Part shown: positions 19,225 through 26,157 of the stretch, one piece after another | Layout: each line of letters begins with the position of its first letter | How positions within the stretch are numbered: the stretch's first letter is position 1 | NCBI RefSeq assembly: GCF_900182705.1 | Contig: NZ_FXTP01000015.1 | Location: forward strand, 1-64,000 | From: Gracilimonas mengyeensis | GTDB taxonomy: Bacteria > Bacteroidota > Rhodothermia > Balneolales > Balneolaceae | Reading direction: 5' to 3' | DNA length: 64,000 nt | Program-made: the position numbers and the translations under genes | The notes under the pieces: model-generated | What the model saw: the letters and a program-made list of their open reading frames with translations, nothing else | What the model was told of the DNA's origin: nothing | Databases searched by the model: none

Positions 19225-19297
<73 letters not shown>

Positions 19298-19307
19298 CTA
19301 CCTAACA

Positions 19308-19348
19308 GGGGTTAAGGCTTTATTAATCATAGCTTTAACCCCTTTTTT
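19308..19348 (+). terminator. Element-borne terminator for the tRNA
   Basis: The stem ggggttaaggc pairs with gctttaacccc with one mismatch across a 13-nt loop, followed by six T. It lies 10 bp after the tRNA, inside the element, and replaces the original chromosomal terminator now found at 25819. Confidence 0.85.
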
Positions 19349-19363
19349 ATTTTGGCGCTGTGT

Positions 19364-19378
19364 AACTATTGTGAAACA
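19364..19378. repeat. Left copy of 15-bp arm-type repeat
   Basis: The sequence aactattgtgaaaca recurs exactly, in the same orientation, at 25671-25685 near the other end. Paired copies inside both ends of a tyrosine-recombinase element suggest integrase or excisionase arm sites. Confidence 0.55.
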
Positions 19379-19485
19379 AAGTCGCTGTTTTCTTCCTTTT
19401 CTCTCCGTGTAATAGGGGTTCGATTCGTTCAATTCTCCGAACTATATCGCAGTATATTTCCGTAAATAACCTAAAACTTTAAGGA

Positions 19486-20109
19486 TTATAGTTCAAAGTC
19501 CGGCCAATTATCCCTTAACACTTTCGGCATATGTGCCGGGGTAAATCGCAGATAGTCGGCTCTCTGCTGTTTCTCTCTTAAGCGCTCCAGTCGTTTAAAG
19601 CGCCGGGTTGGTTTGCCGTTATAATGGGTTTGGTTTCGTGTTTCCTCTTCCAGCTTTTTAATTTGTTTATCGAGTCGCCAATATTCATCACAGTATTTGT
19701 AAATCTTTGAGCTTACCTGTGAAGGGTAAAAAATAGTGCGGTTGTAAGCGCCCCGGCTTTTCCATATCGGGGAACCATAGGCTTTATATAGTATCCGGCA
19801 TCTGTTCCCGGATTCGGGGCAAACAAAATATGGAACCTTTCCTTTGCCTAAATTTGAAGGAACAAAGGTTAGCTGAATTTTATAATCGTAGTCGGTTTCT
19901 TTTCCCTCCCATGAAGTGAGTGTATAGAAAAGCCGTATATACTGCTCTTTATCAGTGTAATGGCATTCAATACTAATCCGGCTCCCATCCGTCCAGTTCA
20001 TTTGTCCAGCAATAATATTACCCTCTCTGATAAAGCCCTTTTTTAAAAGATAGCTCAATTCAATTCGGCGGGTTTCTTTTGTGGTGTTTCCTGTTCTATC
20101 TCTTCCCAT
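19486..20109 (-). CDS. Hypothetical protein with degenerate zinc-ribbon-like block
   Basis: A 207-residue protein with no confident family. The middle, YFVCPESGNRCRILYKAYGS, resembles the first half of a two-part CPxCGxR...LY zinc ribbon found in uncharacterised mobile-element proteins. The second cysteine pair, expected in an FxCRxC block, is absent here (IFYPSQ). The C-terminal third is a charged helix (about 140-185) rich in Lys, Arg and Glu, typical of nucleic-acid contact. It is the last gene of the element operon, starting 1 bp after the stop of a 41-residue ORF. A role in element regulation or DNA binding is only a guess. Confidence 0.7.
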   Translation of the reverse strand: MGRDRTGNTTKETRRIELSYLLKKGFIREGNIIAGQMNWTDGSRISIECHYTDKEQYIRLFYTLTSWEGKETDYDYKIQLTFVPSNLGKGKVPYFVCPESGNRCRILYKAYGSPIWKSRGAYNRTIFYPSQVSSKIYKYCDEYWRLDKQIKKLEEETRNQTHYNGKPTRRFKRLERLREKQQRADYLRFTPAHMPKVLRDNWPDFEL

Positions 20110-20110
20110 G

Positions 20111-20236
20111 TTACCAATCAGTTTCTAACGGTTCTCCTAACGAATGGGAAACGCCCCGTACTTTTGGCAGTACAAACGGCATCAATTTTAAAACAATTAA
20201 CTGATTCCGCAAATCTTTGGTTATCACTTCATTCAT
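20111..20236 (-). CDS. Microprotein of 41 residues in the element operon
   Basis: ATG at 20236, stop at 20111-20113. It begins MNEVITKDLRNQLIVLKLMP and ends GEPLETDW. It overlaps the preceding 51-residue ORF by 8 bp in another frame and ends 1 bp before the next start, filling an otherwise empty 270-bp gap in a tightly packed operon. That tiling is the evidence for a gene. No family is recognised. The amphipathic first half could be a short regulator helix. Confidence 0.5.
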   Translation of the reverse strand: MNEVITKDLRNQLIVLKLMPFVLPKVRGVSHSLGEPLETDW

Positions 20237-20384
20237 GGTTCTTTCTCTGTTTTAGTTTCTGTTTATTTGAATCAAAATCTTTACTCCAATGGTCGGGAGC
20301 GGTTACCTTTTCAATGCGTTTTCGCTTTCTCTTCTTTTTTCGTGTGGGTTGGTATAGTACTTTCGCCATTTCATGGCCGTTCAT
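20229..20384 (-). CDS. Basic microprotein of 51 residues in the element operon
   Basis: The ATG at 20384 overlaps the primase-like stop as ATGA (20381-20384), a standard coupling arrangement. The sequence is strongly basic: an RKKKRKRKR run at about residues 15-23, followed by a hydrophilic tail. It may bind DNA or RNA, for example as a replication accessory. No family is recognised. It is supported by the coupled start and by the gap-free tiling with the next small ORF. Confidence 0.5.
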   Translation of the reverse strand: MNGHEMAKVLYQPTRKKKRKRKRIEKVTAPDHWSKDFDSNKQKLKQRKNHE

Positions 20385-21523
20385 TGTTCTGTGATTAGTT
20401 CGGGTTCAAACGTTTCATCTATATGTTTTAGAATTGGGTCGGCATCCATAGCCCGGTAATATTCTGCTTCTGCGTATTCAGCCGTACCCGGTTCCGGCGC
20501 TTCGATTTCATCCCATGAAGCCGGATACCCCCGTTTATCGAATATTTCCCCGGTATAGGGATTGAAGCCGTTAGGGGCTAAAATTTGGCTTCCATACTTT
20601 CCTTCTCCGGCGCTATCTCTCCGGGGTGCATGGTTTACCCTTGCTGAATTTCGGCTAATTGTATCCGGGGTGCGGGGAGTCTTTGTTCCGGTATCAAAAC
20701 CGCTGTTTATGGTCGCCCGTACTTCATGGCTTTTCAATCCAATGGAGAGCGCCGTTTGTTCGAGTGCCTGTTTTACTTCAAATTCGTTAAGCATCCCCCC
20801 GGCAACCAAGCCGGCTAAACTTGCTGAACTTTTGAAAAGCTGATTATTTCTATTTCCTTTTTGAGCGGTTGACAGAATTTCTATTTCATCTTTGAATGCT
20901 GTTTCTGCGTAGCTGGAATAATCGTTTGAAATGTGAACCGGTGTCGGGGAATATATTTGTACTGGTTCCGGTGGGAGTTTCTTATAAACCGTGAATGAAT
21001 CTTTAAGAATAGCGCCGGGGTCGTAACTGTAAAACCGAGCATCATTTGGGTTTTTTCCTTTGGAGCTATCCAGAACAATTCCGAACCCTTCAAAATCTTT
21101 GATAAGCATCTCGAAATGGTCGGCTTGTCTTTCCGGGTCGGCTACCTTAACAAGCGCCCAAACTCCAGCACCCCCGGTACTCAATCCGGCAAAGGATACA
21201 TTCTTTATCTTTGCCACTTCATCCCGGATACGTTCGGCATCGGGTAGGTGCTGGTTATCTTTGCCGTCAATGTCTAAGGCAATCCATCCGGTACGGTTTA
21301 CCACGTTCTCCAGTTTACGGCCATTAGAACAGACAGCGCCGACGGTTACAAGGGGTAAACTCTTCTTTAGGGAGTCGGCCTTTGTATCCCGGTACTTTAG
21401 CACTTGTTTGGCATATCGGGAACCATGTTTACACACTTTCAGCCATTGGTCTAAAGTGATTGTTTTAGGTTCGGAATGGAAGTTCTCGAATACGCTTACT
21501 TTGTCTTCAAACATGGCGTTCAT
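20381..21523 (-). CDS. BT4734/BF3469-type primase-like replication protein
   Basis: About 380 residues. A GTG four codons upstream would also be in frame, but the ATG at 21523 is preferred since the GTG lies inside a palindrome. The N-terminal half matches the VirE-N/BT4734 family, an archaeo-eukaryotic-primase-like fold: GWIALDIDGKDN (acidic DxD), FAGLSTGGAGVWALVKV, and a later KGKNPNDARFYSYDP. A helical PriCT-like region with QKGNRNNQLFKSSASLAG follows near 230-290, then a Pro/acidic tail. In mobile elements such proteins start DNA replication together with a RecA/DnaB-like ATPase, here the upstream gene. It lies just downstream of a GTTCAC/GTGAAC repeat cluster. Confidence 0.8.
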   Translation of the reverse strand: MNAMFEDKVSVFENFHSEPKTITLDQWLKVCKHGSRYAKQVLKYRDTKADSLKKSLPLVTVGAVCSNGRKLENVVNRTGWIALDIDGKDNQHLPDAERIRDEVAKIKNVSFAGLSTGGAGVWALVKVADPERQADHFEMLIKDFEGFGIVLDSSKGKNPNDARFYSYDPGAILKDSFTVYKKLPPEPVQIYSPTPVHISNDYSSYAETAFKDEIEILSTAQKGNRNNQLFKSSASLAGLVAGGMLNEFEVKQALEQTALSIGLKSHEVRATINSGFDTGTKTPRTPDTISRNSARVNHAPRRDSAGEGKYGSQILAPNGFNPYTGEIFDKRGYPASWDEIEAPEPGTAEYAEAEYYRAMDADPILKHIDETFEPELITEQ

Positions 21524-21529
21524 GTTTTT

Positions 21530-21629
21530 GTTCACGGGTGAACATTAGTGTGAACAGAAGGTGTTCACGTTCATATAGGTATGTGAAATGAACAGTGAAC
21601 ATATTATCCGGCGCTTAAATCCTGTTCAC
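21530..21629. repeat. GTTCAC/GTGAAC repeat cluster, candidate origin or operator
   Basis: Six exact copies of the hexamer in 100 bp: 21530, 21538, 21550, 21563, 21595 and 21624. Two pairs form perfect palindromes (gttcac-gg-gtgaac at 21530-21543, gtgaac-N7-gttcac at 21550-21568). It sits between the ATPase stop and the primase start, a usual place for iterons of a replication module or for an operator. Confidence 0.55.
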
Positions 21630-22587
21630 TTATATTGGAATACTTTGAGACAGTACCTACTCCAATATCCAGCAAGTCGGCAATTTCGCGGGTCGATTTC
21701 CCTTCATCTTTTAGCCGTTGAACTTCCCTTATTTTATGAAGCCTTTTTTCTTCTTTGGTTTGAGCTTCCAGCTCCGGCGAAAACATACGTTCCGAACGTG
21801 TTATTTTTAATTCATTCATAACATCATTGAAATATATTTCCGCCCGGAGTGGGGAAAGGGGTTTAGCGCTCCGGCTTTTCACACATTGCAATTCAATTAG
21901 GTTGGAACCGTCTTTTTGATATTCGCTTTTAAGTCCGAAAACAAAATCTGCTTTGGTTCCAAAAACGCGGGAGTCCGAAATGTCTTCCACGTTGTATTCA
22001 TTCTTAATTTTTGAACCTTTGCGGGTGTGAGTAATAAGGATAACGGCTACATTTGCCGAACGTGCCAAACGGGTAAACCTTTGCATGGTTATGTTTGCTT
22101 TTTCCGCTTCGTATAAATTCCCTTCGTGGAAGTCGGCAAGCGTATCAAAAATAACGGCATCAAATCCCTGGTTTTTTATTTGGTGCTCCAGTTCTCCCAT
22201 GAACTCATCATTTGTGGCTACACAATACAAGCTATCGGGAAGGGGAACAGTGTAAAGTCCATCATTCGATTTGATAGCCTTAGCCCGTCGCCGAATTTCG
22301 CTTTCAGATGAATCGGCTCCAGTTAGATATATCGCTTTCCCTTTTTGGGTTGGCAATAGTTCATCATTTCGTTTTTGAAATAATATTTGATTGAAAAGAG
22401 ATTTCCCACTCCCGGCGCTCCCGCCGATTACTGTGATTAATCCTTTAGCACAATAGCCATCTACAATGAACTCCAGCGGGGGAACATTAGCTTTCAGCGG
22501 GTCGGAAATATTGAACCATGTTTCCGGTTCATTATCCATTTCATTCAAATCTATATTTTCGGGGATTTTCAGTTCATTAGTTTTCAT
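21604..22587 (-). CDS. RepA/AAA_25-type RecA-like ATPase with C-terminal HTH
   Basis: About 327 residues. The ATG at 22587 fits MKTNELKIPENI; five further codons upstream are possible. Walker A is GGSAGSGKS near residues 53-61. Walker B is in AVIFDTLADFHEG near 138-150. A sensor-like ILITHTRKGS follows near 175. This is the hexameric RepA/RecA-fold helicase group of plasmids and phages. A C-terminal HTH (STREIADLLDIGVGTVSKYS, about 302-321) is an added DNA-binding module, perhaps for the nearby repeats. It overlaps the upstream small basic gene by 11 bp. With the primase-like protein it forms a replication pair. Confidence 0.85.
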   Translation of the reverse strand: MKTNELKIPENIDLNEMDNEPETWFNISDPLKANVPPLEFIVDGYCAKGLITVIGGSAGSGKSLFNQILFQKRNDELLPTQKGKAIYLTGADSSESEIRRRAKAIKSNDGLYTVPLPDSLYCVATNDEFMGELEHQIKNQGFDAVIFDTLADFHEGNLYEAEKANITMQRFTRLARSANVAVILITHTRKGSKIKNEYNVEDISDSRVFGTKADFVFGLKSEYQKDGSNLIELQCVKSRSAKPLSPLRAEIYFNDVMNELKITRSERMFSPELEAQTKEEKRLHKIREVQRLKDEGKSTREIADLLDIGVGTVSKYSNISEQDLSAG

Positions 22588-22807
22588 TATGAACCCCCTC
22601 AAAATTAGACTGTAAGCCTTCCAATACTTTCAGATATGTGATATGTCCATTTACTAAGGTGTGCTTTAGTACGGTTATTCTCCGGCGCTTAATAGCATTG
22701 TTTAAGCCTTTGGGATTGCCTAAATTAGTAGTGCCAGTTTTAAACTGGTTACCAATATTAAGGCCGTTCCCTTTCGCCGGGGTTCGGTCTTTTTTCTGCT
22801 CTCTCAT
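22577..22807 (-). CDS. Small basic protein of the element
   Basis: A 76-residue basic protein with central KRRRITVLKHTL and no cysteines. Its start overlaps the HTH gene's stop as ATGA (22804-22807) and its end overlaps the ATPase gene by 11 bp, so it is an integral operon member. No family is recognised. It may be a DNA-binding replication or excision accessory, similar in size to helper proteins in Bacteroidota mobile elements. Confidence 0.65.
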   Translation of the reverse strand: MREQKKDRTPAKGNGLNIGNQFKTGTTNLGNPKGLNNAIKRRRITVLKHTLVNGHITYLKVLEGLQSNFEGVHNEN

Positions 22808-23097
22808 TTTGGCTCCCCGTTGCTATTTACTTTTCCCTTGTTCAAATAGGCTTCTACTTCTTCGATATTATATCGGATAGTTCGGCCATTCTGTCGATAA
22901 GGCAACCGCCCGGAGTCTCTTAGGTGTTGAACGTGGCGACGGGAACATTGTAAGATGTCCATTACTTCGTCGGTCGTTAACCACTTTTTGCGGGTGGCTT
23001 TTCGGATAGCGCCGGGGAGAGAATCGTTTACCGTTTCTTTTACGGCATCCCGGATAAGTTCCTTTAAATCGTCTTTGGTGGGTATGTATGCGTGCAT
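22804..23097 (-). CDS. Excisionase-like HTH_17 protein
   Basis: A 97-residue protein. A helical N-terminus is followed by a MerR-like winged helix: WLTTDEVMDILQCSRRHVQHLRDSG then LPYRQNGRTIRYNIEEVEAYL, the standard HTH_17/excisionase signature. In integrative elements this protein directs excision or regulates replication genes. A 10-bp-arm palindrome ends 1 bp upstream of its start codon, suggesting autoregulation. It opens the replication sub-operon and overlaps the next gene by 4 bp. Confidence 0.88.
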   Translation of the reverse strand: MHAYIPTKDDLKELIRDAVKETVNDSLPGAIRKATRKKWLTTDEVMDILQCSRRHVQHLRDSGRLPYRQNGRTIRYNIEEVEAYLNKGKVNSNGEPK

Positions 23098-23098
23098 T

Positions 23099-23129
23099 TT
23101 ATCAGTGATTAATTAATGTTCACTGATAA
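23099..23129. promoter_or_regulatory. Palindromic operator candidate before the HTH gene
   Basis: Perfect 10-bp arms, ttatcagtga (23099-23108) and tcactgataa (23120-23129), flank an 11-bp spacer and abut the HTH start codon at 23097. Binding there would cover the ribosome site or promoter. Confidence 0.6.
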
Positions 23130-23196
23130 TTTGCATTCACTTAAAAAAGGAACTCAATACCCCGTATAACTGGAATTTAAACCGGAATAACCGGAA

Positions 23197-24375
23197 TTAG
23201 TGTTCTGTTTGCGCTTGGTCGGGTTTGTATTCATTCCAGTAAAACTTAACCCATCCATCTATGGTTTTTAAATCGGTTTTATTCAATATATCGGATTGGT
23301 TCTTAACCTCTTTTGAAATGGTTCTTACCTTTCTGTTTATAGAATCAAGTTGTTCATCAAAAATGTAATTCCTAACTATTTTTAAAGCCGTAGTAATAAT
23401 TTCAGAGTCATATTTTCCAGCTTTATTTTCCTCTCTGTTACAAAATTTATCAGCTACTGTTTCGGGTTCGGGTAGCTGTTTAAATCGTTCATCAAGTTCA
23501 AATTGAATTTTAGGTTTAACACGGTCGTTTAAAAAAGCATCTTCGAGAATGCTTTCTAATGGATTGATTTTATGCGCTAACTGTACCGCCATATCTATTA
23601 TCGGGTCTTTCTTTTTGGAAAGAGTTAGAACTCCGTGAATAGTGGTATCAATCAGATGTTCAGGTATATATTTGTTCTCTTTGAGTTTTTCCAGCAATGA
23701 ATGACGTTCAATCAATTCTGTTTTGGCTCCGCTTAATATTAGGGCCTCAAACAGGTTTCTTATATTTCTTAAAACGTTGCTTCGGTCTTTTACTCTCTGT
23801 TCAATCTCTTCATCTGGATTTCCTTTCAGAATGGCTTGTTCCGACTCGTAATAATACACTTTTAGAACATTAGATATTTCTTGGTTCCATTCATTAAGCT
23901 GTTCGGCTTGTCTATGGAGCTGTTTTAAAATTGTATCTCTGTAATTTGATATAACGGGTAATTTTTCCGGGGGAATGGTTCCGTTTTCACTTATCCCAAA
24001 CGTTTCCAGTGCCTGTTTATATTCCTCTCCCTTAAATCCATATCTGTTAATCTGAATATTTATAAAACTGAACCGGGGAGTTAAATATCCCGTTGGTTCA
24101 GATTGTGGAATCTCTTTAATTACAGGTTCTATACCGTGTTTCTTTGAACCGGGGAATTGTACCTTTTCTGTTTTACCGTTGGGTCTATGTGAACTTTTAT
24201 AATTAATCGGTTCCGGTATATCAAAGTACCCATTCCAGTTAAAATCTGGTTTATTCAGTTTCCTATCATTGGATTTATTCCAATGGTAATAAATACCCCC
24301 ATTCGCAGAAGTATAGGAATACTTACCCCCTAATTGAGCGCCTAAACTTTCATTTATTTCATTCCAATCATCCAT
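23197..24375 (-). CDS. Unknown 392-residue protein of the element
   Basis: The start is the ATG at 24375, overlapping the integrase stop by 1 bp (TGATG); a TTG one codon earlier is unlikely. The N-terminal about 120 residues are polar and aromatic (SANGGIYYHWNKS, DFNWNGYFDIPEP). The remainder looks entirely helical, with several charged, coiled-coil-like segments (about 150-200 and 340-380). No signal peptide, membrane helix, zinc site or nucleotide motif is visible. I do not recognise a family. It is coupled to the integrase and could be a recombination partner, a host-interaction or anti-phage protein, or a helper-sensing factor. Confidence 0.75.
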   Translation of the reverse strand: MDDWNEINESLGAQLGGKYSYTSANGGIYYHWNKSNDRKLNKPDFNWNGYFDIPEPINYKSSHRPNGKTEKVQFPGSKKHGIEPVIKEIPQSEPTGYLTPRFSFINIQINRYGFKGEEYKQALETFGISENGTIPPEKLPVISNYRDTILKQLHRQAEQLNEWNQEISNVLKVYYYESEQAILKGNPDEEIEQRVKDRSNVLRNIRNLFEALILSGAKTELIERHSLLEKLKENKYIPEHLIDTTIHGVLTLSKKKDPIIDMAVQLAHKINPLESILEDAFLNDRVKPKIQFELDERFKQLPEPETVADKFCNREENKAGKYDSEIITTALKIVRNYIFDEQLDSINRKVRTISKEVKNQSDILNKTDLKTIDGWVKFYWNEYKPDQAQTEH

Positions 24376-25601
24376 CAAAACACCTTTTTCATTGCTTTAT
24401 CTGCCAGCTCTTCATTCAGGCTTTTCAGATAGGATTGAGTCGTTTCAATTTTGGAGTGCCGGAGCGTTTGCATCAGTTCATATACATCTAAGCCCTTTTC
24501 AGAAACGGCATATTGTGCGAATGAATGTCGTGAAACGTGGAAGCTAATGTTTTCATCAATCCCGGCCATCTTTGCAATCAGTTTTAAACCGGTTTCGGCT
24601 CCCTCTTCTTTTTTACCGTTTACCCTCACATTATTGGAACTGATAGCCCGGCGCAATTCTACCGGGTCGCTGTAATCTTTATGGCTATTCAGAAACGGGA
24701 ATATGTATTCATCAGAAGCGCCGGAGTACCTGTTCAAAATATCTTTTTGGTACTCGTTTAATTCGGTACTGAATGGCTTTTCATTTTTGTTCATCTGATA
24801 GGATAGTTTCCCGTTTTTCACATTCTGCCATTGAAGCCCGCAAATATCCCCAAAACGTATTCCCCCGCTGTAAAAGCTGAACAGGAAAGCGTTCCGAACG
24901 TGCCATTCCCAAGAACAAGGTTCAAGTTTTAGCGCTTCAATATCCTGTATCTGCTCAAAGGTAAGTTTTACTTTCTGTTTGGCTCTGCTCCGTGTGGGTA
25001 CTTCATATTCTTTGAATGGGTCGTTTGCCATCAAATGAGATTTTAAAGCCCTATATATGATTTTGCGTATCGGCTCAAAGTTTTTGTTAATAGTCGAATC
25101 GCTGTTCCCGTACTCTGTTCTTAAATGGTTTTCAAACTTTTCGAGATACCCGCCATCTATCAGTTTCAGCGGGAGAGAGCGTTCCCCCTCAAACTCTTCA
25201 AACTTCTTTAAAACTACTTTCAGCGTTTTGGAAGCATAGTATTTTTTATTCGCTTCAAGCTCTTCGAGTAGCTGTTCCCCTAATTCAAAAAAATCAGCCT
25301 TTTGAGTAATTTTAATTCTCTGCCGGATAGCCTTCGCCGTTTCATGGCCGTTTCTTCTCAATTCCGTTTGAACCCGCCGGGCTTCACTTATTTTAAGCTC
25401 CAGCATTTCATTTAAAGTTTTATAAGTATCGTGGTTCCGCCGTACCTCTTCCGCTTCCGGGTTCCAGTGTTTCTTTTTAACAGATACCCCGGTACTTATA
25501 TACTTATGTTTCCGGTTGTTAGTGATTCGCAGATAGATAGGATATTCGCCGTTCTTTTTCTGAAAATCTGTTCTTAGATATAGATGAAATGAAGTCGCCA
25601 T
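24375..25601 (-). CDS. Tyrosine-recombinase integrase
   Basis: About 408 residues from ATG 25601; MATSFHLYLRTDF is the usual N-terminus of the Bacteroidota arm-DNA-binding_5 domain, while a start at 25622 would add seven residues. Domains are arm-binding (1-85), SAM-like core-binding (about 100-195) and catalytic (about 210-405). Catalytic residues visible are Arg in SGGIRFGD, the HxxR pair in HVSRHSFAQ, His in LRHSKIETTQ and Tyr in SYLKS. It lies next to attR, facing away from it, as integrases of tRNA-targeted elements usually do. It should catalyse integration into the initiator tRNA. Confidence 0.95.
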   Translation of the reverse strand: MATSFHLYLRTDFQKKNGEYPIYLRITNNRKHKYISTGVSVKKKHWNPEAEEVRRNHDTYKTLNEMLELKISEARRVQTELRRNGHETAKAIRQRIKITQKADFFELGEQLLEELEANKKYYASKTLKVVLKKFEEFEGERSLPLKLIDGGYLEKFENHLRTEYGNSDSTINKNFEPIRKIIYRALKSHLMANDPFKEYEVPTRSRAKQKVKLTFEQIQDIEALKLEPCSWEWHVRNAFLFSFYSGGIRFGDICGLQWQNVKNGKLSYQMNKNEKPFSTELNEYQKDILNRYSGASDEYIFPFLNSHKDYSDPVELRRAISSNNVRVNGKKEEGAETGLKLIAKMAGIDENISFHVSRHSFAQYAVSEKGLDVYELMQTLRHSKIETTQSYLKSLNEELADKAMKKVF

Positions 25602-25670
25602 GTTTTCGCCGTTGGTTACCAATTTGTTTTAAAGTGTATTCCAATATAAAGCTATTTGGTTTTACTGTAA

Positions 25671-25685
25671 AACTATTGTGAAACA
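25671..25685. repeat. Right copy of 15-bp arm-type repeat
   Basis: Identical to 19364-19378. It lies between the integrase start and attR, 115 bp from the core, as expected for arm sites. Confidence 0.55.
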
Positions 25686-25800
25686 TTTTTTGTATTTAGT
25701 ACTTTATTGGGAGTATTCAGAAACTCTTAATATACTCTATAAACGGCGTTTTTGTAAGTGTGAGCGTATTATTAAGGAACTGAAATGAATGGTTAATTAG

Positions 25801-25818
25801 TCCTGTCCCCGCCACTAC
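25801..25818 (+). other. attR core, 18-bp direct repeat
   Basis: A second copy of the tRNA 3'-end sequence, but without an upstream tRNA body. It is followed directly by a terminator, so it marks the original chromosomal tRNA tail. Confidence 0.9.
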
Positions 25819-25853
25819 AAAGGCTTCTTGATTCAGTTCAAGAAGCCTTTTTT
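25819..25853 (+). terminator. Original tRNA terminator, displaced by the element
   Basis: A perfect 13-bp stem (aaaggcttcttga/tcaagaagccttt) with a 6-nt loop and a T-run directly follows attR. Before integration it would have terminated the initiator tRNA transcript. Confidence 0.85.
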
Positions 25854-26157
25854 ATGGCTTATCTTTTTTTCATTACGATTCAGTTGCTGCACAAGAGTAA
25901 TCTTTTGAAGTGAATTTAGTAGTATAAACTCTGCAGGCAGGGAATCTGAGACACACCACTCATTCAAAGTTTGTATCCTGTTAACCTATTAGGTTTTGGT
26001 CTCTTTCACACGTTTTACAAAACAGGTAGAAGTTGAATGGCTTTAGGGATTGTGCTAATATGATTCTTCCAGATCAAATTTTCGATTAGAAAGTGTGGAT
26101 GGGCGAGTTTAGTAGAGGTGGGTAAAGGAAACAGATAATCAAAAAAACAGTGGGCAT
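25854..26157. other. Gene-free gap right of the element
   Basis: About 300 bp with no supported gene and only weak short ORFs. It lies between the displaced tRNA terminator and the SusD-unit terminator. I see no strong repeat or RNA signal in it. Confidence 0.5.

Follow-up and report, generated by a model that had tools for sequence, protein, structure and literature searches.

The DNA analysed here, hereafter the window, comprises 64,000 nucleotides of Gracilimonas mengyeensis (Bacteroidota, Balneolaceae; assembly GCF_900182705.1, contig NZ_FXTP01000015.1, positions 1 to 64,000), in which the initiator tRNA-Met(CAT) gene houses an element of 6,517 bp, measured from repeat to repeat. A preliminary description based on the sequence alone had claimed at this position an element of about 6.5 kb with exact 18-bp attachment (att) repeats, one-stranded gene order, an integrase, an excisionase-like helix-turn-helix (HTH) protein, primase-like and RecA-like proteins and iterated short repeats, but no relaxase, terminase or structural gene, and each of these claims was borne out. 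The tRNA gene (19225..19298, plus strand; ARAGORN), the sole copy found in the genome, is left intact, and the direct repeat TCCTGTCCCCGCCACTAC, exact over 18 bp, lies at its 3' end as attL (19284..19301, plus) and recurs as attR (25801..25818, plus). Directly inside attL, the element supplies a terminator-like hairpin (AGGGGTTAAGGC...GCTTTAACCCCTTTTTT, inverted repeat I2; 19303..19352, plus) that takes the place of the tRNA's own, while the original terminator now lies outside the element past attR (25819..25857, plus). Just inside each att site stands a copy of the 15-bp sequence AACTATTGTGAAACA (left, 19364..19378, conserved in the sister element L005 described below; right, 25671..25685; both plus), and these are the only two matches in 64 kb when up to two mismatches are allowed, so that the pair has the form expected of integrase arm sites. 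As the preliminary description had proposed to look for, the tRNA-fMet locus was also found without insert, namely in six genomes of the same genus (L177, L179-L182, L184), where the order is aminotransferase, tRNA-fMet and a terminator hairpin, the same hairpin that directly follows attR in the window (25819). In two further genomes of the genus, the same tRNA is occupied by larger islands of 45.7 kb (G399:C1:640758-686569) and 75.6 kb (G187:C6:260978-336706), with tRNA 3'-end repeats at their borders, an integrase that shares 33% identity with the L005 integrase and a cargo of efflux-, restriction- and helicase-like genes.

The element carries nine genes, all on the minus strand and running from the far end toward the tRNA in the order integrase, 392-residue protein, HTH_17 excisionase, s76, AAA_25 ATPase, BT4734-type primase, s51, s41 and p207. 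The tyrosine integrase (24375..25601) matched Arm-DNA-bind_5 (PF17293, 3e-18), SAM_5 (PF13102, 7e-16) and Phage_integrase (PF00589, 1e-15), the excisionase-like protein of the AlpA type (22804..23097) matched PF12728 (1.1e-14), and upstream of its gene lies the inverted repeat I15 (23093..23135), a candidate operator. Replication functions are represented by a RepA/RecA-type ATPase with a C-terminal HTH (21604..22587; PF13481, 3e-18; HTH_23, 3e-4) and by a primase-like protein with a BT4734-like_N domain (20381..21535; PF08800, 6e-10; phrog_18375 primase/helicase, 7e-16). Towards its C-terminus (window 20500-20640, residues ~300-345) the primase contains the peptide NGFNPYTGEIFDxRGYPxxWDE, which is common to primases of otherwise unrelated replication cassettes and could be a docking tail. 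The 392-residue protein is encoded in the second position (23197..24375), where the ATG of its gene shares one nucleotide with the integrase stop codon (TGATG). It gave no significant Pfam or PHROG match, its structural model was poor (predicted local distance difference test score, pLDDT, 46), with order at residues ~300-383 only and no structural match, and its sequence is conserved in close relatives only, the C-terminal part being common to the related elements L006 and L007. Ten other proteins encoded at this position likewise had nothing significant in Pfam; a resemblance to RteC was considered and then dropped. The last gene before attL encodes p207 (19486..20109), a protein of 207 residues without significant Pfam or PHROG match, whose model (pLDDT 84) had no fold match in the PDB or among viral models. 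Between these genes lie three short open reading frames (ORFs): s76, of 76 residues, between excisionase and ATPase (22577..22807; 47% identical in L005), the basic 51-residue s51 (20229..20384; 82% identical in L005, with a ratio of non-synonymous to synonymous substitution, dN/dS, of 0.27), and the 41-residue s41 (20111..20236), which resembles the end of a ~70-residue protein preceding p207 in L158 and L164 (53% over 28 residues, E 3e-6 in a small set) and belongs to a type for which no family match was obtained. No gene of the window element matched a relaxase, terminase or structural family in Pfam or PHROG.

Besides the arm repeat, the element contains two kinds of repeats. A cluster of TGAAC/GTTCA iterons (21530..21628), with eight copies in ~105 bp at 21.5-21.6 kb as compared to a maximum of four in 20 shuffles of the window, occupies the gap between the helicase (ATPase) and primase genes, and TGAAC repeats of equal spacing stand beside the homologous ATPase of the related element L039 (ATPases 72% identical). 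CTTAGT/TTAATTAAGC-type repeats were found in L005 and L040, which both encode a DUF3987 protein (60% identity between the two), and GGTTTAA-type repeats in L041. As the iterons thus differ between helicase types, we infer that the cluster is the predicted origin of replication and would travel together with its helicase; that the two change jointly makes the replicon testable. The third kind, the dispersed 8-bp motif AGCGCCGG, occurs nine times in the element (window 19599-24717) in both orientations and all frames, against 0.25 copies expected, once in the 57.5 kb of flanking DNA and three times in 100 kb of other DNA of the same genome. Codon usage was excluded as its cause, since 2,000 rounds of synonymous shuffling produced 0.5 copies on average and never more than three, versus the nine observed. 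Eight copies are also present in L005 (L005:5866-10572), some of them within its non-homologous helicase gene, and a few other elements have dispersed motifs of their own (ACCTCATC in L157, CGCGCCG in L007 and GGATGAC in L049) that exceed the range of 22 chromosomal control segments. Possibly such motifs serve as helper-related recognition sites. The superficial likeness of AGCGCCGG to an uptake signal and the fact that the window element holds integration and replication genes only would also suit an integrative plasmid that is self-sufficient, has no dedicated helper and is spread solely through natural transformation or passive transduction. Unlike host uptake signals, however, the motif has few copies in the host genome, for which reason it is unlikely to be a host Chi or uptake signal, and small terminases in relatives (see below) imply packaging, so that we regard this explanation as improbable.

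The proposed search for syntenic elements in other genomes yielded, among others, L005, a sister element located in the same tRNA-fMet in a genome of another genus (G235). Amino acid identities between the two elements amount to 94% for the integrase, 87-89% for the 392-residue protein, 91% for the excisionase and 77-81% for the primase, whereas the adjacent host aminotransferase is 79% identical. Synonymous divergence is ~0.4 for the integrase and 392-residue protein genes and saturated for the host aminotransferase, from which it follows that the element has moved between genera. With dN/dS values of 0.05-0.20 for the integrase, 392-residue protein, excisionase and primase genes (0.14 for the 392-residue protein), the larger reading frames are intact and, to judge from these ratios, under purifying selection. 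The sisters lack homology in two modules: the helicase, since the position of the ATPase is taken in L005 by a DUF3987 protein (PF13148, 8e-30), and the gene block beside the tRNA, where a 165-residue protein of a type termed HGG and a 118-residue ORF replace the p207 block.

Overall, about 25 related elements with a common layout were recognised, members being called from reading frames and profile hits rather than from curated annotation. These elements of 5.6-14 kb reside in tRNA-Met, Gly, Val, Leu and Arg genes between att repeats of 12-50 bp, the integrase and position-2 genes overlap or lie no more than 20 nt apart in 15 of 22 elements, and the primase is present in 14 of the 92 genomes of the host family. 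Three more elements of the same general layout lie in the host genome itself (L040:5697-14281, L052:7962-14911, L153:9053-14086), so that together with the window element four satellite-like elements coexist in one host. Six relatives possess a recognisable small terminase without a large one (L006, L041, L202-L205). Across the 92 family genomes the small terminase family PHROG 6299 had five matches, and all of them fall within compact elements of the general layout (L006, which ends at the contig end, and L202-L205, of which L203 has an apparently shortened integrase), where they directly follow the replication gene and no large terminase stands alongside. HGG proteins were found in the sister L005 and in L007, L054, L055, L206 and L207; their small-terminase scores are only weak, and they immediately precede a large terminase in seven of ten IMG/VR phage loci tested. 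The most elaborate set of phage-type genes is that of L041 (L041:5100-19256; G171:C107), a 14.1-kb element in tRNA-Gly with 47-bp border repeats and a related primase, which additionally encodes a small terminase (6e-11), a ClpP-type head protease (7e-44) and a 635-residue tape-measure protein (2e-36) and thus gives the impression of a satellite equipped with genes for tail length and head maturation. Neither in L041 nor in any other member of the group was a gene for a large terminase, a portal or a major capsid protein seen. These findings support the earlier proposal of a Bacteroidota/Balneolota family of satellites or integrative replicons that depends on a helper.

The virion genes of L041, together with the fact that integrase, excisionase and primase genes also occur in prophages, might be taken to indicate that the window element is a degraded remnant of a larger prophage. 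We consider this very improbable indeed, as its larger reading frames are all intact and under apparent purifying selection, elements of this compact layout with fresh att repeats are found again at many tRNA genes, and large terminase, portal and major capsid genes were seen nowhere in the group. Integrase, excisionase and BT4734-type primase are, on the other hand, common in Bacteroidota integrative elements, and NBU-type elements of Bacteroides have a tyrosine integrase, an excisionase-type HTH protein and a primase, much like the element described here. Such a gene set, as well as the use of the same tRNA-fMet by the 45.7-kb and 75.6-kb islands with their related integrase, would be compatible with a mobilizable element without a relaxase of its own, carrying only a transfer origin (oriT) and moved in trans by a conjugative element, comparable to a reduced NBU-type element. 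Yet no relaxase was seen in any of the elements, the window element matched no mobilisation protein, 11 of the 12 genomes that bear such elements, among them that of the host, had no MOBP relaxase (PF03432), and the relatives bear terminase, head-protease and tape-measure genes rather than mobilisation genes. In addition, the ORF listing of the two large islands, for which no profile scan was made, showed no evident conjugation gene, and decayed conjugative relatives with a relaxase, the outcome that would have spoken against the preliminary description, did not appear. Transfer by this route is therefore unlikely, though less so than the two alternatives above.

Some members of the group, or their neighbourhoods, hold further cargo. 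Type I restriction-like clusters lie in or beside satellite-like elements at L150:9083-14863, L202:159-8327, L203:1467-8978 and L204:147-3220, so that the elements may help to spread phage defence, and genes with weak proteasome-type (Ntn hydrolase) similarity are carried by the unrelated elements L040 (12801-14087), L150 (15484-16797) and L055 (11870-12514).

Relatives of p207 were found in 11 of 395 genomes of the phylum and at 13 loci in a scan of 84,980 species, the hosts in the latter including Saprospiraceae, Paludibacter, Flavobacterium, Fibrella and Ignavibacteriaceae. The gene usually lies within ~3 kb of a tRNA or tmRNA gene, is most often the final gene and stands behind the integrase, position-2 and excisionase genes plus a replication cassette, of which at least three unrelated kinds occur, among them the DUF5906/D5, DUF6371 and rolling-circle Phage_CRI types. 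The same array (int - position-2 - xis - rep - p207) was also encountered on a 30.6-kb IMG/VR contig (L303:673-7100), which implies that such elements are sometimes catalogued as viral. The preliminary description had singled out the 392-residue protein as the likeliest novel function; this protein has a positional counterpart in a known system (see below), and a new core function is more plausibly sought in p207, which recurs next to tRNA att sites throughout the phylum and could be used as a marker gene for finding such elements.

The satellite families known so far come mainly from Proteobacteria, Firmicutes, Cyanobacteria and Actinobacteria, and a search of the open literature, partial in coverage, returned no described satellite family in Bacteroidota. 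The closest parallel is provided by the Vibrio element PICMI115, which spans 6.1 kb between 17-bp repeats with the order int-iolg-alpA-up1-prim-variable gene/defence region-att gene, and in which iolg overlaps int and is needed for excision while alpA triggers excision (PMC10803314). Induction by a virulent phage and packaging of concatemers into full-size capsids also belong to the definition of a PICMI. The window element resembles it in size (6.5 versus 6.1 kb), in repeat length (18 versus 17 bp) and position by position in gene order, with the 392-residue protein in the place of iolg and s76 in that of up1; neither has capsid-remodelling genes, and relatives of the window element have restriction systems in the corresponding end region. 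Of the genes on which the PICMI model relies, the integrase (PF00589, 1e-15), the AlpA protein (PF05930 or PF12728; here PF12728, 1.1e-14) and the iolg/icg gene overlapping or adjoining int ahead of alpA (here with a 1-nt overlap) are all present. In contrast, the primase families of the model, DUF3987 (PF13148) or DUF5906 (PF19263), are replaced by PF08800 and PF13481, although L005 has PF13148 and the related L051 PF19263 (1e-17), and instead of integrating downstream of fis in Vibrionaceae, the window element occupies tRNA-fMet in a member of the Bacteroidota and its relatives tRNA or tmRNA genes. Because primase family, integration site and host group all differ, the element is not a PICMI by the published model (PMC10803314), and many of its relatives differ further in carrying a small terminase or p207. 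With PICI and cf-PICI elements it shares an AlpA-type regulator, an integrase and a primase, some relatives adding a small terminase and L041 a head protease and a tape measure, whereas the window element itself has neither a small terminase nor capsid genes detectable by Pfam or PHROG and a different gene order. Tycheposons and VEIMEs, satellite-like islands of marine bacteria (PMC11389934), resemble it in targeting tRNA genes. As in phage satellites in general, a complete virion gene set is lacking. Different proteins fill the PICMI layout gene for gene, which points to a minimal satellite design held in common.

Taken together, we consider it likely that the element is a phage satellite of minimalist type, dependent on a helper and equipped with an exchangeable replicon, belonging to a scattered and apparently undescribed group. 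This interpretation is favoured over an integrative plasmid or a mobilizable element by the small terminases that relatives carry at the same operon end without a large one, by the position of HGG proteins before large terminases, by the virion genes of L041 and by the lack of a MOBP relaxase in all but one of the element-bearing genomes examined for it. For excision, replication, helper use and the part played by p207 we infer the following course, in which the individual gene roles are assigned from the match to PICMI115. The integrase and the AlpA-type HTH_17 protein, the latter as the trigger, would excise the element from tRNA-fMet, probably together with the 392-residue protein as an iolg-like cofactor; the ATPase and primase would replicate it from the iteron origin between their genes, and the element would leave the cell inside particles of an infecting helper phage. 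The place of p207 is filled by a small terminase in relatives and by the defence gene up2 in PICMI115; p207 would accordingly be the helper-facing gene, with a possible part in directing packaging or in some other interaction with the helper. Several observations weigh against such a satellite. In the window element, neither a small terminase nor a capsid-remodelling gene nor any other gene for direct phage hijacking is recognisable, and its primase lies outside the PICMI-model families. A search of the host genome for a large terminase gave no PF03354 and only weak ATPase-like hits to phrog_2, so that no resident helper is known. Phage records, plasmids and IMG/VR contained no close relative: the 392-residue protein had no relatives there, the primase only distant ones in IMG/VR (no more than 36% identity), the integrase scan of IMG/VR gave matches at 26-31% identity only, and a single p207 homologue lies on the integrase-bearing contig mentioned above.

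Beyond the window element, we put forward more tentatively, as a possibility short of a probable one, that a tRNA- and tmRNA-targeting satellite lineage extends across the Bacteroidota on the frame int - iolg-like - AlpA - swappable helicase-plus-iteron cassette - hijack gene - att, with p207 as a novel protein for packaging or for exploiting the helper that has no relationship to the small terminases known, and with the 7-8-bp dispersed motifs of some elements possibly acting as recognition sites for a helper factor. The comparison with PICMI makes the roles of both the integrase-overlapping gene and the end-of-operon gene testable, and such a lineage would belong to a phylum that is central to gut, soil and marine ecosystems.

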